A stretch of DNA of 53,481 nucleotides from Pyrinomonadaceae bacterium (lineage in GTDB: Bacteria; Acidobacteriota; Blastocatellia; Pyrinomonadales; Pyrinomonadaceae). The notes below the pieces were generated by a model. It did not search any database, had not been told where the DNA came from, and saw only the letters and a program-made list of their open reading frames with translations. A program made the position numbers and the translations under genes. Positions within the stretch are counted from its first letter, which is position 1. Each line of letters starts with the position of its first letter. Below, piece after piece: positions 2,361 through 18,506 of this stretch. The DNA is taken from the NCBI GenBank assembly GCA_023717605.1, contig JAMQPH010000719.1, forward strand, positions 1 to 53,481, given 5' to 3'.

Positions 2361-2852
2361 CTAGGCTGATTTAACGACTTGTTTGGCTGGAGACTCGATT
2401 AAGCCCTGGACCACCTGCGCTACTTGTGAGAGTGGTTTTGGCTTTCTCAGAAATGCGTCAGCACCGCAGCGCCTGGCTTCATCTTCCATCTCAGTGGAAC
2501 CGTAGGCCGTGAGCACTATGATTCGCGTTTCGGGATGACGCTCGTGAGCCAATCTAATAATGTTGAGTCCGTCCGGATTGCGAGTTGTGCCCAACCTCAA
2601 GTCCTGGATGATGACCCGGTATTCAGTGCTTTCGATCAGCTTTTCAGCTTCTTCAGTTTCTCTGGCCGTATCAACATTGAATCCATGCAGCGAGAAATAC
2701 TCGCTCATGGAGAAGCAGATCGATTCCTCGTCGTCAATAATCAGGAGGCGGGGTGTCCGCGGCTCCACTTCACGGGGGTTGCCTTGGATGCCGAGCATAC
2801 GCTTTAAACGTCCTGACACTTTTCTTAAATGTCCAAATCGAGTTTGCTTCAC
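2361..2852 (-). CDS. Stand-alone response regulator receiver protein
   Basis: A 163-residue CheY-like receiver with a short N-terminal extension. The acidic pair is D40/D41, the phospho-acceptor D84 (VIIQDLRLG), the switch Thr T115 (VLTAYGS) and the conserved Lys K137 (LRKPKP). There is no output domain, so it probably works through protein contacts or phosphotransfer. The longest frame uses a GTG at 2852 without a visible ribosome site; an ATG 18 codons in (2798), preceded by AGGACG, is an equally plausible start. It is the last gene of a minus-strand run that also contains the PEP-CTERM gene and the NtrC/kinase pair, so it may belong to that signalling circuit. Confidence 0.85.
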   Translation of the reverse strand: MKQTRFGHLRKVSGRLKRMLGIQGNPREVEPRTPRLLIIDDEESICFSMSEYFSLHGFNVDTARETEEAEKLIESTEYRVIIQDLRLGTTRNPDGLNIIRLAHERHPETRIIVLTAYGSTEMEDEARRCGADAFLRKPKPLSQVAQVVQGLIESPAKQVVKSA

Positions 2853-3423: not shown

Positions 3424-3636
3424 CTATATCGCTATAGCAGCCCGCACATTGGGCCTTTGCGGGATCAGCAGTTGGGCTTTACCTGCCCCAGAGGGAGAAG
3501 GAGGCTTGGTGATTATGTATAGCAAGACTTCACAGACCTCACGTGTGCCTGTCCCTATCGTATTCCCCTTCTCATCCTGCAGGGCATAAATCTTGCCATT
3601 GAGATCTAAAGGAAGAATCATTGGCTTCGTGTGCAT
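3424..3636 (-). CDS. Small hypothetical protein
   Basis: A 70-residue protein not recognised from family knowledge. The N-terminal half looks like a compact beta-rich fold (MILPLDLNGKIYALQDEKGN), with a Pro/Ser-rich middle and a short hydrophobic end. A good ribosome site (AAGGACA) precedes the ATG, which argues that it is real. It lies between the PEP-CTERM gene and the zinc-binding small gene. A strong hairpin occupies the gap to the PEP-CTERM stop codon. Confidence 0.45.
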   Translation of the reverse strand: MHTKPMILPLDLNGKIYALQDEKGNTIGTGTREVCEVLLYIITKPPSPSGAGKAQLLIPQRPNVRAAIAI

Positions 3637-3677: not shown

Positions 3678-3720
3678 CAGCACTTTCATTCGCTATGCGT
3701 ACCTTGGACTACAGTTACCC

Positions 3721-4356
3721 TTAGCCCTGGTTGCGCGCTCTGAGCTTTCGGCGCACAGCCCCAGCCACACCGGCAAGACCAGTTCCCAGGAGCAGCATGC
3801 TGGCTGGCTCTGGAACAACAGTTGTAGGAGTTGTAATCCGGGATTGAATCGAAGTGACTCCGTTGTTTGTGGACGGAGGTACCAGGTTCAACGGGTTTTG
3901 AGTTACATCGTACTGCACGCCGTTGATGTTGACCCCGGTTACCATAAAGGCAATCACTCCAGTACTACTGTTCTGACTGATCGTCCCCGTGAGAGTTCCT
4001 GAGAAGTCGTCAAATCCCGCGCTTGGGACAGTCTGGGTTACCCGCAGAGCGAAGGTAGTACCGGCAGTAATGGCGGCACCTGTACCCATAGTCGCAGTCT
4101 GAATCTCGCCGAGACTGGCAAAGGTAAAGCCTGCTGGGCTGGTGTCCACCATTGAGTTTGTGACACCCGTAAATGTCAGACTCAACTGGTTACCCATGCC
4201 GCCAAAAACAATGGCGTTCGGGCTTGAAAATGCACCGCCGTTGAACGACGCAGTAGTGCTAAACGTTACCGGATCTGCTTTTGCCGCCGCTGCTGCAAAG
4301 ACCATCAGTCCAGCAACCAGAGCAGTCATAAGCGAGGTCCTAAGAAGATTCTTCAT
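3721..4356 (-). CDS. PEP-CTERM sorting-signal surface protein
   Basis: A 211-residue secreted protein. Residues 1-27 form a signal peptide (hydrophobic core ALVAGLMVFAAAAAKA). The mature part is Ser/Thr/Gly-rich and beta-structured. The C-terminus is a textbook PEP-CTERM signal: VVPEPASMLLLGTGL, a short membrane helix and a basic tail (RRKLRAR). Such proteins are processed by an exosortase/archaeosortase and exported to the surface or the exopolysaccharide; no exosortase gene is in this window. The ribosome site is strong (AGGAGG, about 7 bases). A sigma-54-type promoter about 325 bases upstream and an adjacent NtrC-type activator suggest sigma-54 control, as known for the PrsK/PrsR-regulated PEP-CTERM genes. 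Confidence 0.9.
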   Translation of the reverse strand: MKNLLRTSLMTALVAGLMVFAAAAAKADPVTFSTTASFNGGAFSSPNAIVFGGMGNQLSLTFTGVTNSMVDTSPAGFTFASLGEIQTATMGTGAAITAGTTFALRVTQTVPSAGFDDFSGTLTGTISQNSSTGVIAFMVTGVNINGVQYDVTQNPLNLVPPSTNNGVTSIQSRITTPTTVVPEPASMLLLGTGLAGVAGAVRRKLRARNQG

Positions 4357-4427
4357 TTGAAATTCCTCCTACCCTTGTTAAAGAACTCCCCAAAATCTTG
4401 AGTTCCGATTGTTAACACTCCTGTGGG

Positions 4428-4493
4428 CTCATCGGGAGCCCTTCAGTTCATCCCTAAACTCTCATCGGGAGCCCTTCAGTTCATCCCTAAACT
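4428..4493. repeat. Perfect 33-bp tandem duplication in the PEP-CTERM leader
   Basis: Two identical, directly adjacent 33-base units (4428-4460 and 4461-4493) lie 72-137 bases upstream of the PEP-CTERM start, inside its predicted 5' untranslated leader. On the transcript each unit carries AGGGAT and can pair GGGA with TCCC around a short loop. The perfect identity suggests recent duplication. Confidence 0.9.
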
Positions 4494-4680
4494 TTGGGAA
4501 AGAGTTGTCGGCAGACTCCCGAGCGAAACTCTTTACTACTGGGCTTCATGCTCGGGTTGTACTTACCTGGCTAAAGGCTGGGGTCTGGAGAGCTTGCGGG
4601 GCAAGTGCAGGCTCATCGCAGTTCCAGCTTGCCCTCGAATCAATCCGAGGGCGACGTGTAGATTGGCACACCGTCTGTTT

Positions 4681-4696
4681 AGCAAACGTTGGGCCA
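4681..4696 (-). promoter_or_regulatory. Sigma-54 (RpoN) -24/-12 promoter for the PEP-CTERM gene
   Basis: Read on the minus strand the sequence is TGGCCC-AACGT-TTGCT. It matches the consensus TGGCAC-N5-TTGCW at 10 of 11 defined positions, with exact GG-N10-GC spacing. It points at the PEP-CTERM gene and gives a leader of roughly 310 bases. It lies directly behind the gene for a sigma-54 activator. Confidence 0.7.
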
Positions 4697-4765
4697 CAGA
4701 CATTCATCATCATGGATCATGGAAAACCTTGATTCTATTACCTCTTTGGGCCTGAGTATCGGAAC

Positions 4766-4786
4766 TCTCAGACCGAAAATCTGAGA
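4766..4786. promoter_or_regulatory. Inverted repeat, candidate activator-binding site upstream of the sigma-54 promoter
   Basis: TCTCAGA-N7-TCTGAGA is a perfect 7-bp inverted repeat about 70-90 bases upstream of the -24 element, the distance expected for an enhancer-binding protein site. It also lies just after the stop of the NtrC-type gene, so a weak terminator is the alternative; no T-run follows. Confidence 0.4.
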
Positions 4787-4800
4787 TTCAGACTTGGATT

Positions 4801-6153
4801 CTAGACTCTGGACGAGCTGAGCTGGTATTTCTTAATCTTCTGATAAAGCGAGCTTCGGGGAATGCCCAGTCGTGACGCTGCCTTCTCCACCCGCCCTTGC
4901 TCCTCGAGCAACACTCGTTCGATATGCTGCTTCTCGAGTTCGTCGAGGGTCAGATTCGAGTCGAGGTAAGAAGCCCGGCGCTTAGAATGGCCATCGAAGT
5001 GAAGGTCCTGAAAGCGTATGTTCTTCTGTTCACTCAGTAATACTGCGCGTTCTATTACGTTGCGGAGTTCTCTCACATTGCCGGGCCAGGAGTACGCTTG
5101 CAACGCTTTGATCGAATCCGGCTCGAGCTGAATCTCGCCCCGGCCGAGATCGGTAGCCAGTTTGTCGAGAAGATAGTTGGCCATGATCGGGATGTCTTCG
5201 ATTCGCTCTCGTAATGATGGAAAGGCAAGCGGTATCGTGCTGACCCGAAAGTAGAGATCATCTCGAAATGTTTTGTCTCGCACCAATTGGCCGATATCCT
5301 GATGGGTCGCAGCAATCAGGCGAACATCAACTTGCCTATCTCTGACATCTCCTACTCTGCGGAAGCGATTGTCTTCAAGCACCTTCAGCAGCTTCGGTTG
5401 GATCTGAAGATCGACGTCACCAATCTCGTCGAGGAAGATCGTCCCCCGATGAGCCACCTCAAACAGACCCTGTTTCGAAGCCGTGGCGCTGGTGAACGCC
5501 CCTTTTTCGTGGCCGAATAGCTCAGTTTCCAACAACTCCCGCGACAAGCCCGCGCAATTAAGATCTACGAACGCCTCCTCGCCTCGGGGACTATTATCGT
5601 GCAGCCACCGTGCGAGCACGCCTTTGCCGGTACCCGTCTCGCCGAGAATTAGGACCGGGCTTTCCGTGGCCAAAACTCTCTTTGCCTGCTCCGCGAGAGC
5701 GCGAATGCTTGAGCTCACTCCAATGAATGGGTTAATCGCGCGGCGCACCTGACGAGATCTGCTGGCGAGTTGTTTGTGACGGTTCCGTTGATTCTCCAAA
5801 AGGCGCTTAAGAATAACCATCAGGGCCGGCAACTCCAGGGGCTTGGTAAGAAATTGCTCCGCACCCTCCTTAATCGCCCTAACTGCGAGGTCGATAGAAC
5901 CGTGGGCCGTCAGAATAAGCAGGGGAATATCCGGATTGATTTCTTTGAGGCGTGGGAGAAGGTCCAGAGCCGTACCATCTGGAAGCATGTAGTCGGCGAT
6001 GACAATATCGGGACGCGATGTTCTAAATGTTTCCTGCGCTTCCCGGCAACTCTCGGCTTCGTCAATCTCATAGCCTTGAAGCTCAAGAAAATCTCGGATT
6101 CCGAAGCGCAACCCGGGCTCATCATCCACAATCAGAATCCGATTTCTAGACAT
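4801..6153 (-). CDS. NtrC-family sigma-54-dependent response regulator (PrsR-like)
   Basis: A 450-residue protein in three parts. The receiver is at about 4-118 (phospho-acceptor D54, T83, K104). The AAA+ domain is at about 142-375, with Walker A GETGTGKG at 171-178 and Walker B FLDEIG at 240-245. A C-terminal Fis-type HTH is at about 405-445 (RVEKAASRLGIPRSSLYQKI). The sigma-54 contact loop reads GAFTSA rather than GAFTGA; the key Phe and Thr are kept. The start codon overlaps the end of the kinase gene by 8 bases, so the two are translationally coupled. Its position directly upstream of a sigma-54 promoter for a PEP-CTERM gene supports a PrsR-like role; the exact target set is inferred. Confidence 0.9.
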   Translation of the reverse strand: MSRNRILIVDDEPGLRFGIRDFLELQGYEIDEAESCREAQETFRTSRPDIVIADYMLPDGTALDLLPRLKEINPDIPLLILTAHGSIDLAVRAIKEGAEQFLTKPLELPALMVILKRLLENQRNRHKQLASRSRQVRRAINPFIGVSSSIRALAEQAKRVLATESPVLILGETGTGKGVLARWLHDNSPRGEEAFVDLNCAGLSRELLETELFGHEKGAFTSATASKQGLFEVAHRGTIFLDEIGDVDLQIQPKLLKVLEDNRFRRVGDVRDRQVDVRLIAATHQDIGQLVRDKTFRDDLYFRVSTIPLAFPSLRERIEDIPIMANYLLDKLATDLGRGEIQLEPDSIKALQAYSWPGNVRELRNVIERAVLLSEQKNIRFQDLHFDGHSKRRASYLDSNLTLDELEKQHIERVLLEEQGRVEKAASRLGIPRSSLYQKIKKYQLSSSRV

Positions 6154-8383
6154 CCACGGTCTCCTCCTGGTGAGGCACCGGGAATCTCGCTGTCATACAA
6201 GCACCACCTTCGGGATTATTGCCTGCGATCAGCTTGCCCCCATGCTCGCCCATAATTCTATCCGCTATTGCAAGTCCCAGTCCGGTGCCCCCCCGGCGCT
6301 TTGAAAAGAAGGGTTCGAACATTTTTGATCGATCCTCTTCAAGGATCCCCGGGCCGCAATCCTTCACAGAGTAGTCAATCCAGGTCTGCATAGCCTCATG
6401 CACCAAGCAAGCTTCGACTCTTACTGCTGCCCCCGACGGCGAGTGCTGGATTGCGTTTTCAATCAGATTCACAAAGACCTTTGACAACCTTCTGCGATCA
6501 ACCATCAACTTCGGCAGTGGATTCGTAATATTATTCACCAGGCTTACTTGAGCAACCTCCGCGGCTGGTAAGCAGGAGCGCAGCGATTTCGCGATGACAT
6601 CGTCGACGGACATTTTAAAGAAGTCTCCTTTGAACGGCTTGCCATATTCAAGAAGTTCTTCCATGAGAACTGTGAGCCGTCCCACCTCGTCCCGGAGCAC
6701 GTCCGTGTACCTGAGATACTCTGTCCGGTCGGCAAAGCGGGTTTCGAATGCGTCCAGGATTGAAGATATGCCGAACAAGGGATTCCTAACTTCGTGTGCG
6801 ACCCCAGCCACCAGAGACCCGAGCAGAGACATCATTTCGCCCTGACGCAGCGAGGCCTCGAGTTCGGTTCTCTTGGTAATATCCTGGGCGATGAGGATCG
6901 CCCGTTCCCCAACTGAGCCGAATTCGTGAATCAGAGACAGCGTTATTGCCCAAGTCTTGCCAGTTGCTTCGTCTTTGACCTCAGCTGAACTGGAACCACC
7001 GTTTGCCCGGATCGCTTTGATGAGTTCTGAAGATTTCTTCCACGGCTGACTGCCCTCCAACTCGGCGATGTTGCGACCGACAATCTGTTCTGCGTTCACT
7101 CCCGCTATCTCCTCGGCCACCTGGTTTAGCCGCTTAATGCGACCCTCCAGGTCAATGATTAGAACCGGGAATTCGATAGCATTGAATGTCTGGCGCCATT
7201 CCATTGCAGACTGCTGAAGAGAAGCATGTAAGCTTAGCTGTTTCTCATCCAGTAGTTTCCGCTCGCTTACGTCGTTAGCGATCACCAGCCGGGCCGCGCT
7301 CCCGTTGAAGGTCAGAGGATGAGAGGTCATTTCGACATAGATGATGCTGTTATCTTTCCGACGGTGACGCCAGGGACTGGAAATCAGCGGTTCGTTAATA
7401 CCAGTCGGAGTTTTAATTAGGAGGGCCGGGGTATCCGCGGTCGAGCGAATGTCTGCGATGGTCATCGACAGAAACTCCTCCCGATCATACCCATAGGTCA
7501 GGATAGCGGCTTCGTTTACCGCAAGAAATGCAAGAGTCAGTTCGTCGTAAACGAATATCGGTTGCGGAGTAGATTCAAACAACAGCCGGTAACGCTCGTC
7601 GGAGTCGCGCAGGGCAAGCTCGATCTGCTTCCGGTCGGTGATGTCGCGAGCGACGCCGCGAAGACCTATTGTGTCGCCTTTTCTATCCTTGGTGGGAGAG
7701 GTGACGATTTCGAGCCACCGCTCTCGACCGTTGGCGTCTTCAGTCCGGAACTGGAGATTGCCGTCCGGCTCAAGTTGCCTGAACGTCCCCGTTTGATCGG
7801 AGTCTCGAGGATCGATCTTGAATGCCTCAGTGAAGCGAGTGCCCAGCAACTCTTCCGGTCCGACGCCGAGAAAGTGGGCTCCCGCCGCATTAATTCCCGT
7901 CAAGCGCCCTTTCATGTCTTGGGTGAAAATAATGTCACTGGCTTGCTCGACCAGATCACGATAATTGGCCTCGAGGTTTGAACGTTCCAGTAATCTCGAA
8001 ACCTTTGCAATTAGGCGCGTTGAGTCAAAAGGCAGTTCAAGATAATCGTCGGCGCCTGATTCAAGCCCCTCAATAACACTTTCGGTGTCCCGTCGATGGG
8101 CGCTTGCCAGCAGGATCGGAATTGAGCGCAGTTCTGAGTCCTGTCGAATAAGCCGGCAAAACTCTATTCCATTTAACCGAGGCATGGAGACGTCGCTAAT
8201 GACGAGGTCCGGACGGTTGCCCTTGGCGACGTCGAACGCCTCCTGTCCGTCGGCCGCAGTGATTACTGCATAGCCGGCCTTACGTAATAGGTTCTCCATC
8301 AACCACAACTGTTCGGGTATGTCGTTGACTATCAGCACCGTGTCTTCGCGGTGCCCATTATTGGAATAGTGTACCCGACGCAT
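6146..8383 (-). CDS. Receiver-PAS-PAS-PAS histidine kinase
   Basis: A 745-residue soluble hybrid kinase with no membrane segment. The order is an N-terminal receiver (about 15-130, phospho-acceptor D64), three PAS domains (about 135-255, 260-380, 395-510), a HisKA dimerisation domain with H530 in GVAHEVRNP, and a HATPase domain with the N, G1 (KDCGPGI) and G2 (GGTGLGLAIADRIMGEHGG) boxes. The C-terminal NtrC gene overlaps it, so this is its likely cognate kinase. PrsK kinases of known PEP-CTERM systems are usually membrane proteins; this one senses through PAS domains in the cytosol and may itself be controlled by phosphorylation of its receiver. Confidence 0.9.
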   Translation of the reverse strand: MRRVHYSNNGHREDTVLIVNDIPEQLWLMENLLRKAGYAVITAADGQEAFDVAKGNRPDLVISDVSMPRLNGIEFCRLIRQDSELRSIPILLASAHRRDTESVIEGLESGADDYLELPFDSTRLIAKVSRLLERSNLEANYRDLVEQASDIIFTQDMKGRLTGINAAGAHFLGVGPEELLGTRFTEAFKIDPRDSDQTGTFRQLEPDGNLQFRTEDANGRERWLEIVTSPTKDRKGDTIGLRGVARDITDRKQIELALRDSDERYRLLFESTPQPIFVYDELTLAFLAVNEAAILTYGYDREEFLSMTIADIRSTADTPALLIKTPTGINEPLISSPWRHRRKDNSIIYVEMTSHPLTFNGSAARLVIANDVSERKLLDEKQLSLHASLQQSAMEWRQTFNAIEFPVLIIDLEGRIKRLNQVAEEIAGVNAEQIVGRNIAELEGSQPWKKSSELIKAIRANGGSSSAEVKDEATGKTWAITLSLIHEFGSVGERAILIAQDITKRTELEASLRQGEMMSLLGSLVAGVAHEVRNPLFGISSILDAFETRFADRTEYLRYTDVLRDEVGRLTVLMEELLEYGKPFKGDFFKMSVDDVIAKSLRSCLPAAEVAQVSLVNNITNPLPKLMVDRRRLSKVFVNLIENAIQHSPSGAAVRVEACLVHEAMQTWIDYSVKDCGPGILEEDRSKMFEPFFSKRRGGTGLGLAIADRIMGEHGGKLIAGNNPEGGACMTARFPVPHQEETVDV

Positions 8384-13025: not shown

Positions 13026-16000
13026 TTAGAAAACATATCTTACTCCAACGACGACGCGCCGGTTTCCACCGTTCGTGCTCCACTGATTCAGAAACGCAGC
13101 ATTGGCTGCGCCGCTGGTGGAAAATGCCCGACCGTCCGGTATTCCGAAATTACGTGTGTTGGTGGCATTGAAGAAATCGGCCCGTAGTTGGAGCCTTTGA
13201 TTCTCACCAAGACGAGTATTTTTCATTACACCGAAGTCGATGTTGTTTATGCCATCGGCGCGCAGGATGTTGCGACCCGCATTGCCTACACGTTCTCCGA
13301 ACGCTGCCCCTCTTAATGGCTGGAAGAGAGTGTTCCTCAACGCGTAGATCTCCTCAATCGACATTCCGGAAATATCCAGGGTCGTGATCACGTTGGGGCG
13401 AATCGCATCGCCGACGAGGCCGGCGATGCCACTCAAAGCGCCCGTTGGGTCAGAGCCATTCAAGACCGTAAACGGGGCGCCGCTCTGGAAAGTAAAGAAT
13501 GAGTTAATCTGCCAGCCGCCCAGAACGTGTCCCTTAATTCCACTCTGGTTCTGGAAGAAAGGTAATTCATAAACGACATTGCCGCTGAAGCGGTGCGGCC
13601 GGTCGTAAGTGGAACGTGCCCGATCGGCTCGGCGGTTAAAGGAGTCTTGCGAGACGGCGACTTCGCCGCTGGACGGATTGAAAATCTCAGAGGCGTCGTC
13701 AATGAAAGAGCTCCAGGTGTAGTAGAGACCGGAGCTGAAGCCACGGCTCAATCGCTTATCGAAACTGACCTGCATCGAGTGGTAGGTCGAAGAGCCGGAA
13801 TTTGCGCGCAACCGGATCACGTTCTGAGAGGGGTTGACCCTGACTGTTGAAAATGGCAGCCGGGGATTCCCGTCCAGCGTTTGAAATAAGCCGGTCCCCT
13901 TTGAACCCACATAGCCGACACGCAGGACCATGTCCCGCGAGAGCTCGCGCTGCGCCTCGAAGCTAAAAGAATCGTACGTCGGCGCGTGAAAATCTCCGGA
14001 CACGACCGTGCGCGCGAAAGCGTCGGGGTTAATCGGAGGACTATTCAAGTTAGCGAAGGCACTCGAGACGCCGTTACTGGCCGTACCCTCACCAGGGAGA
14101 ATGATCGGCGCAGTCGGCGAGATGAACGCTGCCACGAATGGGAAAGCGCTCCAGATATTCAGCGCGATGTTGGTAAATGCATAGTCATTCGTGCGGGAGT
14201 AACCACCACGAAGCACTAGTTTGTCGCCACCCGTTAGAAAGCCGGCGATCCCATCAGTGCCGGTCCGGAGGTTCCAGTTAAAACCAATGCGCGGCTGGAA
14301 ATTATTCTTATCGCGCTCGGGAATTGGCCCGACTCTGAAGCGCGGATCATTGCCCGCGGCAGCCAGAACCGGAGCATTAAAGTCAACTAGATCCGAGATC
14401 GGTTGGCCTGGATTCTCATAGCGGAGTCCGTAGGTCAAGGTGAAGTTAGGCCTGACCTTCCACTCATCCTGGCCGTAGAAGAAGAAGTCGTGCCAGTCAA
14501 GATGGAGAACTCGCGCCACACCCTGCAGATCCTTGTTAATCGTGGACGACTGGGCCACGTCGTTCACAAAACGATTCAAGCTGGAGTACTGCAATCTTCC
14601 CCGGGTCGTAGGTTTGAACAGCTGGGCCAACTGATTGCGACGAATATCGAAACCAAATTTGAAGGCATGGCTGCCCGAGGTGTATGAGAGGTTGTCTTGC
14701 ATCTGGTAAGTGTTCCGGAACGAGAACTGAGCCAGATTGACACCAAGTCCGATGCCGGTGCGGTCAGGAGCAGCGTTGAAGCCAACCAGGCCCAGTTCGG
14801 TGATCTCAATCGAGGGAATGAGTTCTGCGCTGGGATCCAGGGCCTGAGTATTTGAGGCTGCTCGCAGATAAGCTCCGCGCAATTCATTTATGAGTTTGGG
14901 TGTAAACACGCTGGTTAGCTGCATGTTTACGCCTTGGTTGCGGGCCACCTGTTTTGATGAGAATCCCGGCGGTGTGACCTGTGATCCGATTCCGTTGGTG
15001 TCACCGTCCTGATAGATATAGCGACCGTTGAGACTGTGTTTGTCGCTGAGCCGATGATCGACACGGAACGAAGTTTGCCAATCGTCAAAGGAGAATGATG
15101 TGGCACCTGTCAAGGAACCGAGAGGCACGTTAAAGGTTTGTCCGTTGGTGATGAACGACGCGGAGGTTCCGATTGGTGTCTGTGCGGCGGGAAGAAACCT
15201 CAACAAAGCTGCGACCTGCGGCCGATTGCCAACGGCATTCAGAAGAACCTGACGGCCTGCTTCTGTGGGCGCGCCTGTGAGGGTGGCGCCTGTACCAAGT
15301 TGGCGGTCATACCAACGCTGGAGGGAGAAAAAGAAAAAGGTGCGATCTTTCCCGCTAATGTAAGACCGTCCGCCTTCGCCGAAGCGCGGCAGGTGCAGCG
15401 GTCCACCAATCGTTCCGCCCACCTGGTTTTCAACGCGAAACGGAGAGTGTCGCAGGGACGGGTCAGTCGCATTGGGGGTGCAAAATCCGGCCGCCTTGTT
15501 CGTGTTACTGCAAGAGTTCAGAGCGTTGCCGTTGTAAAACCAGAAAGCAGAACCGTGATAGCCGTTGGTACCACTTTTCGTTATGGCGTTAAATACTGAG
15601 CTCCCATTTCTTCCATACTCCGCGGTGAACTGGTTGGTCAGCAGTCTTACTTCCTGGATAAGGTCCGGATTGTTAAGCGGCACTGAAGCTCCGGCGACTC
15701 CGAAGTCGTTGTTATCCTGACCGTCAATCATGAAATTGTTCGAGCGAATCCGGCCACCGTTTGCCGAATAACTAACGCCTGAGGTGGCGCCCGCACCGCC
15801 GCCGGCGAAGTTGGTCTGTCCAGCTCCTAACTGGCTAACGCCGGCAGCCGAAAGAGCGACGTTGTAGACGTTCCGATTCGTGGAGAGCGGCAGCTCGGAA
15901 ATGCGCCGCGAGTCAAACCGGACGCCCACCTCCGCAGTAGTCGTATTTAACAGAGATGCATTCTCTACAACACTAACTGACGCTTGAACGTCCCCGGGTT

Positions 16001-16328
16001 TCAACGAAGCATCAATCACGGCGTTCTGGTTTAGAGCCAGCGTAATTCCTGACTGCTCATATTTCCCGAAGCCCTGGGCCTCGATAGTCAATTCATAGTT
16101 ACCGACGGGCACATTATTAAAGCGATAGCGGCCCTCGTCGTCGGAATCCGTCGTTCGCGAATCATTAGTTTGTACGTTTCGCAGTGTCACCTTGGCTTTG
16201 GGTATGATCGCTTCCTTCTCATCTCTGACTTCACCCAGGATGGATCCACTCGTCTGAGCAAAGACTGAAACTGACGTACAAACAAAGAGTGCCATCAACA
16301 GCACCAGGAATCTCACTGTCTTACACAT
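13026..16328 (-). CDS. Oar-like TonB-dependent outer-membrane receptor with N-terminal carboxypeptidase-regulatory domain
   Basis: A 1100-residue protein. The signal peptide covers about 1-25 (cut near VFAQTSG). A CarboxypepD_reg beta-sandwich lies at about 27-110 (GSILGEVRDEKEAIIPKAKV). The plug domain follows at about 115-250 with FMIDGQDNNDFG and QFTAEYGRNGSSVFNAITKSG, then a large beta-barrel ending in the outer-membrane signature VVGVRYVF with terminal Phe. It matches the Oar/TonB family that is greatly expanded in Acidobacteria and imports or binds oligosaccharides, peptides or siderophores; the ligand is unknown. The start is supported by AAGGAGAG. A second receptor of the same type lies 2.2 kb away on the same strand, with a secreted hydrolase between them. 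Confidence 0.92.
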   Translation of the reverse strand: MCKTVRFLVLLMALFVCTSVSVFAQTSGSILGEVRDEKEAIIPKAKVTLRNVQTNDSRTTDSDDEGRYRFNNVPVGNYELTIEAQGFGKYEQSGITLALNQNAVIDASLKPGDVQASVSVVENASLLNTTTAEVGVRFDSRRISELPLSTNRNVYNVALSAAGVSQLGAGQTNFAGGGAGATSGVSYSANGGRIRSNNFMIDGQDNNDFGVAGASVPLNNPDLIQEVRLLTNQFTAEYGRNGSSVFNAITKSGTNGYHGSAFWFYNGNALNSCSNTNKAAGFCTPNATDPSLRHSPFRVENQVGGTIGGPLHLPRFGEGGRSYISGKDRTFFFFSLQRWYDRQLGTGATLTGAPTEAGRQVLLNAVGNRPQVAALLRFLPAAQTPIGTSASFITNGQTFNVPLGSLTGATSFSFDDWQTSFRVDHRLSDKHSLNGRYIYQDGDTNGIGSQVTPPGFSSKQVARNQGVNMQLTSVFTPKLINELRGAYLRAASNTQALDPSAELIPSIEITELGLVGFNAAPDRTGIGLGVNLAQFSFRNTYQMQDNLSYTSGSHAFKFGFDIRRNQLAQLFKPTTRGRLQYSSLNRFVNDVAQSSTINKDLQGVARVLHLDWHDFFFYGQDEWKVRPNFTLTYGLRYENPGQPISDLVDFNAPVLAAAGNDPRFRVGPIPERDKNNFQPRIGFNWNLRTGTDGIAGFLTGGDKLVLRGGYSRTNDYAFTNIALNIWSAFPFVAAFISPTAPIILPGEGTASNGVSSAFANLNSPPINPDAFARTVVSGDFHAPTYDSFSFEAQRELSRDMVLRVGYVGSKGTGLFQTLDGNPRLPFSTVRVNPSQNVIRLRANSGSSTYHSMQVSFDKRLSRGFSSGLYYTWSSFIDDASEIFNPSSGEVAVSQDSFNRRADRARSTYDRPHRFSGNVVYELPFFQNQSGIKGHVLGGWQINSFFTFQSGAPFTVLNGSDPTGALSGIAGLVGDAIRPNVITTLDISGMSIEEIYALRNTLFQPLRGAAFGERVGNAGRNILRADGINNIDFGVMKNTRLGENQRLQLRADFFNATNTRNFGIPDGRAFSTSGAANAAFLNQWSTNGGNRRVVVGVRYVF

Positions 16329-16665
16329 GATTCTCTCCTTCTATTAATCCCGACTGGGGTGTCTAAGTGTTGTCGCGTATTGGTCACCGGGTGCTCACCG
16401 GGGAGGTTGAGCATTTGTTTCCGAAATGTCGGAGAGGCGACCGGTAATGGCGACGGCTGCCTACACTGGAGAGTGCAACGATTGTGCCGTTTGTCCCGTG
16501 AACACTTTAGGCCAGCTCGTCACGCGGTCAGGCCTATTCACTGGTTGGGCGTTGAAAGGGCAGTTGTGGATTTTGGATTAGGTGAAAAGGAAGTTGCGGT
16601 TAATGGACGTTCGCGGTGAGAACACACACCCGGTGTTCACTGTGATTACATCTTTTCGTACGCCA
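16329..16665. other. Leader region of the first TonB receptor gene
   Basis: No gene is called. A 44-base stretch at 16563-16606 resembles one at 22237-22280 upstream of the second receptor (32 of 44 identical, no gaps), in the same orientation. A plus-strand open frame covers it but has no ribosome site and I do not accept it as a gene. Confidence 0.45.
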
Positions 16666-16778
16666 GTCAGAACCGGGAGCTGTAGCGACCGGCTTGCGGA
16701 ATAAGTAATGCGGCTAACAGCTTGCGCTTTGCACAGGTCCGCCACAGGAACCCGGTCGCTACCGCTCCCGGTTCTGAC
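16666..16778. repeat. 113-bp palindromic element with 27-bp arms
   Basis: The arms at 16666-16692 (beginning GTCAGAACCGGGAG) and 16752-16778 (ending CTCCCGGTTCTGAC) are complementary at 26 of 27 positions and enclose 59 bases. No coding potential. It lies between the receptor leader and the end of the hydrolase gene and resembles a dispersed MITE- or REP-like element. Confidence 0.8.
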
Positions 16779-16805
16779 AAGACCAGGATCACTTATGCAG
16801 TAAGC

Positions 16806-17897
16806 TCATTGCCTCACGTTCGCGTCGCGGAAGGCGGCCTCCACGGCAGCGCCGGCTACGTAGTTTCGAAAGATTAGCTTTCTCACCCGAGAGTTGCCGG
16901 CGAATGCTTGTTCAAATTCGTCGAGATTCACACCTTTCCGCACTTGGTCCAGCGTCTCTCCGCGCGGAACCGCGGCTTCAACTTGTCGTTTGATTGAAGC
17001 AAACAGGCGCACCATTAGTTTCAGGTAGGAATCGTCGCGCAACACCGGACCATGTCCCGGGACGATGATGGATGGTTGGAGAGCCAGCAGCTTTTCGAGT
17101 GTAGCTCCCCATTCTCCGGGATGCGATTGTGGACTTCCGACATAGGGCACAGGCGAGATGACCAGGTCGCCGACAATCACGATGCGCTCCTTTGGCAGGT
17201 GGACCACAAGATCGCCGCTGGTGTGTCCACGTCCTAAATACCGAATCTCGACAGTGCGACTCCCGCTATGCAGCGTAACCCGATCAGTTAGAGTGACCGT
17301 TGGCAAGATTATCTCGACGCCCGGATTCTCTGACATGTAGCGTTCGGCGATCCTGATGTCGCTCTCGTAAGTGGTGCGCTCTTCGTCGTCCATTGGGCCA
17401 CCAAATACGCTCTCCTCCTTTTGCAACCTGCTTTTCAGAGACGCGATAAATCCGGGATAGCCCTGTTCAGACATCGCTTGCTTGCGATTGGTTAGTCCAG
17501 TGGTGGGCAAGTATTCGCGTGTGTTCGCATGGGCAATGAACACGACTCCGGGGAAGGCATCGCGAAAGACCTGATTCCCCATGATGTGGTCGTCGTGCCA
17601 GTGCGTATTGACGACGTACTTCACTGGCTTGGAGGTCAGCTTCCGTAACTCATCTAGAACTTCCCTGCCGGATCCAGGAGTCAGCGTGCTATCGACGACT
17701 ACAACTTCCTCTTCATTGATAATGAAAACGCTATTGCCGTTAACAGTGAGGCCCGGCGGTTCTTTGCGAATGACTGCATAGACACCTTCGCTGATCTTTT
17801 GTACTTCGAAATCAGCCAAACGTTTGGGGATCTGGGACAAACTTGGAGCACTCGTCAGTAGGGTTAGCGAGAGAATGTAAGAATAGGTGCGAAGCAT
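16806..17897 (-). CDS. Secreted metallo-beta-lactamase-fold hydrolase
   Basis: A 363-residue exported protein. A signal peptide occupies about 1-21. The MBL zinc motif THWHDDH is at 98-104 (H99, H101, D103, H104), with later ligands in GRGHTSGD and PGHGPV. This layout matches periplasmic MBL-fold proteins of the SoxH/quinoprotein-relay or class-B-like type rather than RNases. The substrate is not predictable; true beta-lactamase activity is possible but not implied. It lies between two TonB receptor genes on the same strand, with repeat elements on both sides, and might process a substrate that they import. Confidence 0.85.
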   Translation of the reverse strand: MLRTYSYILSLTLLTSAPSLSQIPKRLADFEVQKISEGVYAVIRKEPPGLTVNGNSVFIINEEEVVVVDSTLTPGSGREVLDELRKLTSKPVKYVVNTHWHDDHIMGNQVFRDAFPGVVFIAHANTREYLPTTGLTNRKQAMSEQGYPGFIASLKSRLQKEESVFGGPMDDEERTTYESDIRIAERYMSENPGVEIILPTVTLTDRVTLHSGSRTVEIRYLGRGHTSGDLVVHLPKERIVIVGDLVISPVPYVGSPQSHPGEWGATLEKLLALQPSIIVPGHGPVLRDDSYLKLMVRLFASIKRQVEAAVPRGETLDQVRKGVNLDEFEQAFAGNSRVRKLIFRNYVAGAAVEAAFRDANVRQ

Positions 17898-17956
17898 CTA
17901 AAGAGGACCGATTGTTGCCACTTTGTTGAAACTGGCATTCAACGCTGCCAGCATCG

Positions 17957-18430
17957 CTCAACACAGAACCATTTGCGGTAGCCAGTGGATCCTAGAGTCA
18001 ACCATGTAAGCACCGCTCAACCATAGATCCATTTGCGGTACCCAATGGATGCCAAGTTCAACCAAGCCAGATCCCTCAACCAGAGAACCATTTGCGGATA
18101 GCCAAGGGATTCTGGAGTCAACTATGTCAGCACCACCGGACAACATACGATTTCCCCGGTGATAAGTTGATGCTACATTCATCCGGTTAGCCCTCCGAAC
18201 ATTTACGGTGGACTTCATTCATCGAGCCAAGAACCCAACTGGTCCAAGACGCATGAGCCTAGTCAATTAGGGCGGAGTTCAGCTTTGGGTACATTGGATA
18301 TCACAAATGTGTGGGTTGAGCGGTGCTGGTCCGGTTGAATTTACGTTCCATTGGCTACGGCAAATGGCTCTGTGGTTGATCGGCGCTGGTCGGGGTAAAT
18401 CTTGCTCACCCATTGGCTACCGGTACTGAC
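17957..18430. repeat. Degenerate ~59-bp repeat array: five direct units followed by two inverted units
   Basis: Units begin near 17957, 18016, 18075, 18134 and 18193 with a constant 59-base step. The first three share CCATTTGCGG(A)TA and a following (A)TGGAT; the last two are strongly decayed. Two reverse-complement copies with CCATTGGCTAC occur at about 18348-18425. There are no unique spacers, so this is not a CRISPR array. 59 is not a multiple of three and the frames shift, so it is not protein-coding. It fills the gap between the hydrolase and the 3' end of the second receptor gene and belongs to the same family as 12676-12876. Confidence 0.8.
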
Positions 18431-18506
18431 TACAGAAATTGGGGAGCACCTGGCGGCTGCTCCCCAAATACCGGCTCAGCGATCAAGCCAGTCAATATGA
18501 TCTTCC

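Follow-up and report, generated by a model that had tools for sequence, protein, structure and literature searches.

PEP-CTERM proteins and exosortases are widespread, yet the only sigma-54 control of PEP-CTERM genes described in the literature found is the proteobacterial PrsK/PrsR circuit. As set out in the relevant sections of Haft 2006 (PMC1569441), this circuit acts before proteobacterial PEP-CTERM genes with PrsR as the proposed sigma-54 activator, and the sites consist of an activator motif, sometimes repeated, a spacer with a mean of 62.8 nt and then a -24/-12 element; motif 1 has 17 nt with TTTACA at its end, the motifs are shared among Proteobacteria only, and more regulators and DNA motifs are said there to await discovery. 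Here, we ask how a PEP-CTERM gene of a Pyrinomonadaceae bacterium (Acidobacteriota), which lies behind the gene for a sigma-54 activator, might be controlled. The whole stretch of DNA analysed, hereafter the window, is 53,481 nucleotides long and lies on the contig labelled C41 in a genome of 7.38 Mb and 909 contigs (G000, hereafter the own genome); other genomes carry G numbers and individual loci L numbers.

On the minus strand, the gene for a histidine kinase is followed by that for an NtrC-type response regulator and, after a gap of 444 bp, by the PEP-CTERM gene (Table 1), whose product has a C-terminal PEP-CTERM motif above the Pfam cut-off. The original prediction had described the next gene as a sigma-54 activator paired with a receiver-PAS3 kinase, and a domain search confirms both architectures, with 211.6 bits for the activator domain (PF00158) and no membrane span in the kinase, where the highest 19-residue Kyte-Doolittle mean is 1.35. 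We consider it likely that the locus holds an enhancer-dependent sigma-54 promoter, and that the adjacent kinase/regulator pair governs a regulon of PEP-CTERM surface proteins; what the sequence shows directly is the sites, how they are spaced and conserved, and which classes of gene follow them.

Table 1. Features of the locus, with positions in the window
Feature	Position	Strand	Remarks
PEP-CTERM protein gene, predicted target	3721..4356	-	211 aa; PF07589 29.9 bits (cut-off 20.7); start codon 4356
NtrC-type response regulator, predicted activator	4801..6153	-	receiver, sigma-54 activator with GAFTSA, Fis helix-turn-helix
Soluble histidine kinase, predicted partner	6146..8383	-	receiver, three PAS, HisKA, HATPase
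Single receiver-domain protein	2361..2852	-	syntenic in many related loci
Predicted sigma-54 -24/-12 promoter TGGCCCAACGTTTGCT	4681..4696	-	predicted transcription start ~4670; faces PEP-CTERM gene
Predicted promoter-proximal activator site (UAS2) GTCTGAATCTCAGAT	4779..4793	-	82 bp from promoter; kept in orthologous loci and before other PEP-CTERM genes
Predicted promoter-distal activator site (UAS1) GTCCAGAGTCTAGAA	4799..4813	-	overlaps the end of the regulator gene (last codons, stop); its centre is 20 bp from that of UAS2
Inverted repeat of the original prediction	4766..4786	.	distal arm forms one half of UAS2; relatives do not keep the proximal arm
Predicted leader RNA hairpin P1	4631..4652	-	hairpin in the same place in relatives, sequence differs
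Predicted leader RNA element P2/P3	4576..4629	-	hairpin with conserved loop CUUGCCCC

The promoter sequence TGGCCCAACGTTTGCT has the GG and GC of the -24/-12 consensus at the standard distance, and when the 450-bp upstream region was dinucleotide-shuffled 200 times, no shuffle scored as high as the real promoter. The bare consensus TGGCNCNNNNNTTGCW is matched 29 times in the own genome and 29 times in a reversed control, which rules out its genome-wide enrichment, and a scan for the bare element before PEP-CTERM genes, as proposed with the original prediction, was likewise without enrichment (2 of the 29 matches). What sets the promoter above chance is its conservation in 11 of 13 close orthologous loci and its pairing with upstream repeats, not the consensus alone; on these counts the predicted element facing the PEP-CTERM gene (minus strand, 4696..4681) is borne out. 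An integration-host-factor-like stretch, AATCAAGGTTTTCC, was spotted by eye on the minus strand at 4734-4721.

The comparison drew on regulator relatives gathered from 97 genomes, among which 13 close loci had at least 70% regulator identity and a readable 3' end, namely the window, G003 twice, G005, G006, G007, G008, G009, G010, G013, G015, G042 and G043. It left out G002 and G012, whose contigs end before the stop codon, orthologs of at most 66% identity, and the relatives at 35-42% identity listed by a separate contig scan. Where the -24/-12 element follows the ntrC-like gene, it lies 103-107 bp past the regulator's stop codon in nine loci, 129 bp past it in the G003b locus and 195 bp past it in G006. 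The elements stay at similar spacing while the intervening sequence diverges, and the arrangement reaches G043 and G042, which belong to other genera (77% and 70% regulator identity). Among the orthologs of at most 66% identity, high-scoring sites lie 108-123 bp behind L065 and L066 and at other distances behind L067, L071, L074 and some more distant orthologs; sites are weak or missing behind L068, L069, L070 and L075, and L072 and L073 stood outside the comparison.

An enhancer had also been suspected, in the form of the inverted repeat TCTCAGA-N7-TCTGAGA. That there is a candidate enhancer upstream holds up, and the repeat is present at 4766-4786, but its position was wrong, the repeat is not conserved and a second copy of the conserved site had been missed. 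What relatives keep is a pair of inverted repeats, GTCYR-N5-YRGAC, 19-20 bp apart centre to centre; one resembles GTCTGAATCTCAGAC (4779-4793 in the window) and the other, GTCCARAGTCTAGAA/C, lies at 4799-4813. The two predicted activator sites (UAS) both match the pattern in 10 of the 13 loci, one only does so in G042, and neither does at the G009 and G013 loci; UAS2 lies 81-86 bp from the promoter in 10 of 11 loci and 107 bp from it in G003b.

Two displaced copies are instructive. In G006, ~90 bp of extra sequence follow the regulator's stop and both sites and the promoter are shifted jointly (78, 98 and 195 bp past the stop), and in G009 the repeats and promoter have moved together to C321:4289-4400, ~6 kb from the regulator gene at C321:10395-11735. 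Since these two genomes and other targets in the own genome carry UAS1 elsewhere than in the regulator's last codons, it is not merely conserved coding sequence. The repeat TCTCAGA-N7-TCTGAGA itself is kept in none of the relatives' loci compared; the proposed scan showed no enrichment of it before PEP-CTERM genes, with the window as the sole exact match in the genome, and at up to two mismatches there are 79 places against 20 in the control, many of the listed near-matches being TCTGAGA/TTTGAGA heptad repeats. Not kept, imitated by heptad repeats and shifted from the kept sequence, it was discarded as the enhancer. Such heptad repeats and their complements are dispersed over many contigs of the own genome (e.g. 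C221:6802-6901 and C270:7720-7754).

A PEP-CTERM gene lies behind the regulator gene in 10 of the 12 loci read, the exceptions being G009 and G010, and two such genes stand in a row in both G003 loci, G005 and G015. The promoter is kept and the PEP-CTERM gene absent in G010 and G002; conversely, G013 keeps the PEP-CTERM gene behind a decayed promoter with no UAS match. In G086 and G090, which belong to another family, a -24/-12 site after the regulator gene is followed by a gene for a receiver-domain-like protein resembling that at 2361-2852 in the window, and the receiver gene may be the older target of the promoter, with the PEP-CTERM genes as later insertions. A 70-aa protein (MHTKPMILPLDLNGKIYALQDEKGNTIGTGTREVCEV...) is also encoded in the window, on the minus strand at 3424-3636, and in G007, G008, G009 and G010 genes for close relatives of it follow the promoter.

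A composite pattern of UAS and promoter, UAS-N62..92-TGGN8TTGC, has five matches in the own genome against none in the reversed control, and all five (on C41, in the window, and on C473, C592, C783 and C798) precede a PEP-CTERM gene, a result that is not fully independent because the pattern was loosened after three of the five members had been seen. With this corrected, composite element, there is enrichment before PEP-CTERM genes after all, in support of the link that had been proposed. An off-by-one control, in which the sigma-54 half has one extra base between its boxes and is unable to fit the true sites, gives three own-genome matches. Two further results bear on the same point: of 16 PEP-CTERM upstream regions, scored for sigma-54 sites when the UAS had yet to be recognised, the top four are those of four of the five composite-element genes, and a stricter UAS-only pattern, derived from the orthologous loci only, finds 16 places in the own genome (22 rows against 46 in the control), three of which fall no more than 300 bp ahead of the start of a PEP-CTERM gene (P ~1.5e-7, given the 16 such genes that have DNA upstream).

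The two UAS copies are 20 bp apart at all five sites, the upstream one being weak at C473 and C798 (TTCTAAAGTTTAGAA and GTCGCAATTCTAGAA), and the distance to the promoter is 81-85 bp except at C798, where it is 72 bp. L002, where CGG stands at -24 and the copies are 19 bp apart, makes a sixth case but a weaker one. No clear element lies upstream of the other 11 of the 17 PEP-CTERM genes (10 scored, one lacking upstream DNA), one of which, L004, may be co-transcribed with L010. On C592 (~15490-18480), three PEP-CTERM genes on the same strand stand behind one copy of the element; the second starts 62 bp after the first, and a shared transcript is possible.

Across 13 genomes of the genus, the composite pattern has 19 matches against 10 in the reversed control, so that any single match can be chance. 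Twelve precede PEP-CTERM genes, four precede the gene of a sigma-54 activator that has no receiver domain, two are regulator-side promoters lacking a PEP-CTERM gene (G002 and G010) and one is of another kind (G004). Element-bearing PEP-CTERM genes occur in six genus genomes, each with a regulator ortholog of at least 81% identity. In seven genomes outside the genus there are five matches against six in the control, and none of the reading frames that come first behind them is a PEP-CTERM gene.

The arrangement matches a sigma-54 enhancer circuit in which a Fis-type activator has paired sites two helical turns apart and about eight turns from a promoter, adjoined by an activator gene that a kinase gene precedes. 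In NtrB/NtrC-type circuits, too, inverted repeats come in pairs spaced by about two turns, ~100 bp ahead of a -24/-12 promoter; these circuits differ from the window in target genes and site sequence, and the window regulator scores 372.7 against the NtrC family model TIGR01818, below its cut-off of 558.6.

In the mechanism that we propose, to which the binding protein, phosphorylation, the signal, co-transcription and passage through the exosortase are our additions, the soluble kinase would sense a signal, probably cytoplasmic, and phosphorylate the NtrC-type regulator. Regulator dimers would then occupy the two GTCYR-N5-YRGAC repeats and oligomerise, the ~80 bp of intervening DNA would loop, and the AAA+ domain would open sigma-54 polymerase at 4681-4696. 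Looping on one face of the helix is suggested because the natural spacings of 72 and 82 bp are about one turn apart, and the 107 bp of G003b fit it less well. The transcript from ~4670 would comprise a leader of ~310 nt and the PEP-CTERM gene, and might run on through the genes as far as the receiver gene at 2361. Four further PEP-CTERM genes of the own genome, with L002 as a weak fifth, and probably the receiver-less sigma-54 activator would be driven by the same element, and the PEP-CTERM proteins would pass through an exosortase encoded elsewhere in the genome.

That the window regulator binds the enhancer we infer from position and co-occurrence, and the main competitor for this role is the receiver-less activator itself, a protein of 368 aa with sigma-54 activator matches, encoded in the own genome at C649:33078-34091. 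The tandem element precedes its gene in G001, G003, G005 and G011; in the own genome, the tandem pair stands with AGGCCCCACATTTGCA, a variant with AGG at -24, 460 bp before its start codon. On this competing account the regulon is the same but the receiver-less protein binds the repeats, the window pair acting elsewhere or only upstream of it; the element before its own gene would fit such a role, as would G011, where that gene has the element and the window regulator has no clear ortholog. Against it, G002, G007, G008, G009 and G010 have both the element and an ortholog of the window regulator, whereas the receiver-less activator has no match at E <= 1e-110 in G002, G008, G009 and G010, some of which are incomplete genomes, and one at 63% identity in G007. 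Moreover, the element lies directly behind the window-regulator gene in most close loci, and the recognition helices of the two proteins differ (LGIPRSSLYQKIKK in the window regulator against LGIDRSKLYRRLKQ). We judge this account unlikely and prefer the window regulator as binder of the repeats; the receiver-less activator is read as a downstream member of the cascade that might itself also bind them. A short gene beside the G003 copy of this activator has a weak likeness to RseP (48.6 bits, cut-off 147.55).

Variants of the GAFTGA loop, with which such activators contact sigma-54, can be altered in activity. The loop reads GAFTSA in the window regulator, in nine other genus orthologs of at least 80% identity and in G043, G065, G084, G086 and G090, and GAFTGA in G001, G019, G034, G042, G060, G061, G063 and G079.

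A resemblance to PrsK/PrsR control, with a soluble kinase, had been noticed at the outset. The logic is indeed shared with the circuit as those sections of Haft 2006 present it, namely a receiver-sigma-54 activator-Fis regulator adjoining a histidine kinase, an activator motif and then a -24/-12 element before many PEP-CTERM genes with long upstream regions (here all five composite matches), and a TPR gene in the genome, here near the exosortase. The proteins differ: the window kinase is soluble with receiver and PAS domains, whereas PrsK is transmembrane, and the window regulator scores 366.7 bits against TIGR02915 (PEP_resp_reg), below the cut-off of 502.6. The enhancer differs as well, being a tandem GTCYR-N5-YRGAC rather than a 17-nt motif ending in TTTACA, the one part of motif 1 that was compared, which is absent from the window element. 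The window system further adds a predicted leader RNA and a second activator under the same element. By these comparisons the predicted system works like PrsK/PrsR control but is not PrsK/PrsR.

It is very improbable that these promoters answer to a canonical PrsK/PrsR pair encoded elsewhere in the genome, with the window pair as a bystander. For proteobacterial PEP-CTERM genes, the same sections of PMC1569441 propose PrsR as sigma-54 activator, and a PrsT-like TPR gene (309.3 bits, cut-off 312.2) does adjoin the exosortase gene of the own genome. No protein in 20 genomes exceeds the PrsK cut-off (TIGR02916, 300), however; the own genome's best reaches 188.1 bits through its kinase part only, TIGR02916 is not among the best 25 of the 147 NCBIfam matches of the adjacent kinase, and TTTACA, the published end of motif 1, occurs in one of the five own elements. 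The exosortase, which had been noted as missing nearby, is the only one found in the genome and lies on another contig, C119 (TIGR02602, 191.9 against a cut-off of 105.55), with EpsI (144.4 against 42.8) and the TPR gene; the 423 bp readable upstream of this operon contain neither a UAS nor a sigma-54 site. That the -24/-12 match is mere chance, with conservation due to close relatedness or repeats, is a negligible prospect: the lack of enrichment of the bare consensus and the abundance of TCTGAGA heptad repeats speak for it, but a promoter kept at similar spacing amid diverging sequence as far as other genera, and a composite element that recurs at other own-genome loci, contradict it at the sequence level.

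The species Aquincola tertiaricarbonis is a proteobacterium. Its pepA gene is RpoN1-dependent, with a start mapped by primer extension, -24/-12 motifs and an upstream enhancer described as previously predicted, in the sections of the report that concern this gene (PMC9850573). It shares with the window a PEP-CTERM gene, a -24/-12 element and an upstream enhancer, here known from sequence alone; those sections describe no adjacent soluble kinase. In the portion of the open-licence literature on PEP-CTERM and exosortase regulation that was covered, no description of the window element was found.

The predicted leader spans ~310 nt, from ~4670 to the PEP-CTERM gene. Folded singly, 13 leaders show a hairpin P1 of variable sequence and then a stem of the GGCUGG/CCA-bulge-GCC type around a hairpin with the loop ACUUGCCCC or AUUGCCCC; P2 is missing in G005b and different in G008, and its bulge is absent in the window and G007. 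Folding z-scores are -3.9 for the window leader and -2.3 and -0.6 for relatives. A covariance model built from eight leaders finds 20 places in 14 of 162 genomes of the class. Twelve of these lie outside the model set, eight before PEP-CTERM genes and four not (L271, L272, L273 and L280), and for five of the eight (L269, L270, L275, L279 and L282, from four genomes) neither a sigma-54 site nor a paired repeat is clear upstream. Hairpins with the loop UUGCCCC occur before PEP-CTERM genes of other genera too, and L279 resembles a copy of the main leader of the genome that carries it. Within the own genome the model finds the window leader only, so that by this measure the other four of the five regulon members have no leader element.

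Tests of covariation gave negative outcomes or depended on the model. RNAalifold on the first alignment gave three pairs with no compensatory change, and the pair count on alignment A3 was not above shuffles. In alignment A4 (21 distinct and not overly gapped rows of its 25, fitted to the model, without a control), 83% of cells pair, with 16 compensatory cells, a figure that leans towards the model; among these rows are one match on the reverse strand and others that do not precede PEP-CTERM genes. Against Rfam, seven leader loci gave nothing at E values up to 1, and positions 3700-5000 of the window gave two matches (E 3 and 4.8) that fall far short of the gathering scores. Support for the RNA comes from similar shapes in separate folds and from recurrence before PEP-CTERM genes, not from covariation, and the leader element is probably real.

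Taken at this strength, the predicted conserved, lineage-specific sigma-54 regulon of PEP-CTERM genes holds, larger than first reported and with an RNA element that is possibly new. It offers a motif, a regulator, a list of targets and a leader RNA that are concrete enough to test directly, and suggests that on more than one occasion sigma-54 control of PEP-CTERM surface proteins has originated or been rewired, here tied to a probably cytoplasmic rather than a membrane sensor. More tentatively, and with slightly less than even confidence, we propose that this is a second, separately built sigma-54 PEP-CTERM regulon, with soluble kinase, GAFTSA regulator, tandem enhancer and second activator, to which an undescribed UUGCCCC-loop leader would add a post-transcriptional layer to the sorting of surface proteins; if so, the P2/P3 RNA would be a mark of PEP-CTERM messages across several genera, often of ones that lack the promoter.

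Two smaller observations concern leader regions. A 33-bp tandem duplication (CTCATCGGGAGCCCTTCAGTTCATCCCTAAACT, plus strand) lies within the window leader at 4428-4493 and, by eye, is not in the G007 leader. Behind L065 and L066 (G086 and G090), ~155-235 bp past the regulator stop and after the promoter, a stretch is conserved whose ends are complementary to each other, GGGCGGATG...CATCCGCCC in L065 and GGGGCGAG...CTCGCCCC in L066; it looks like a different structured leader RNA before the receiver-like gene.
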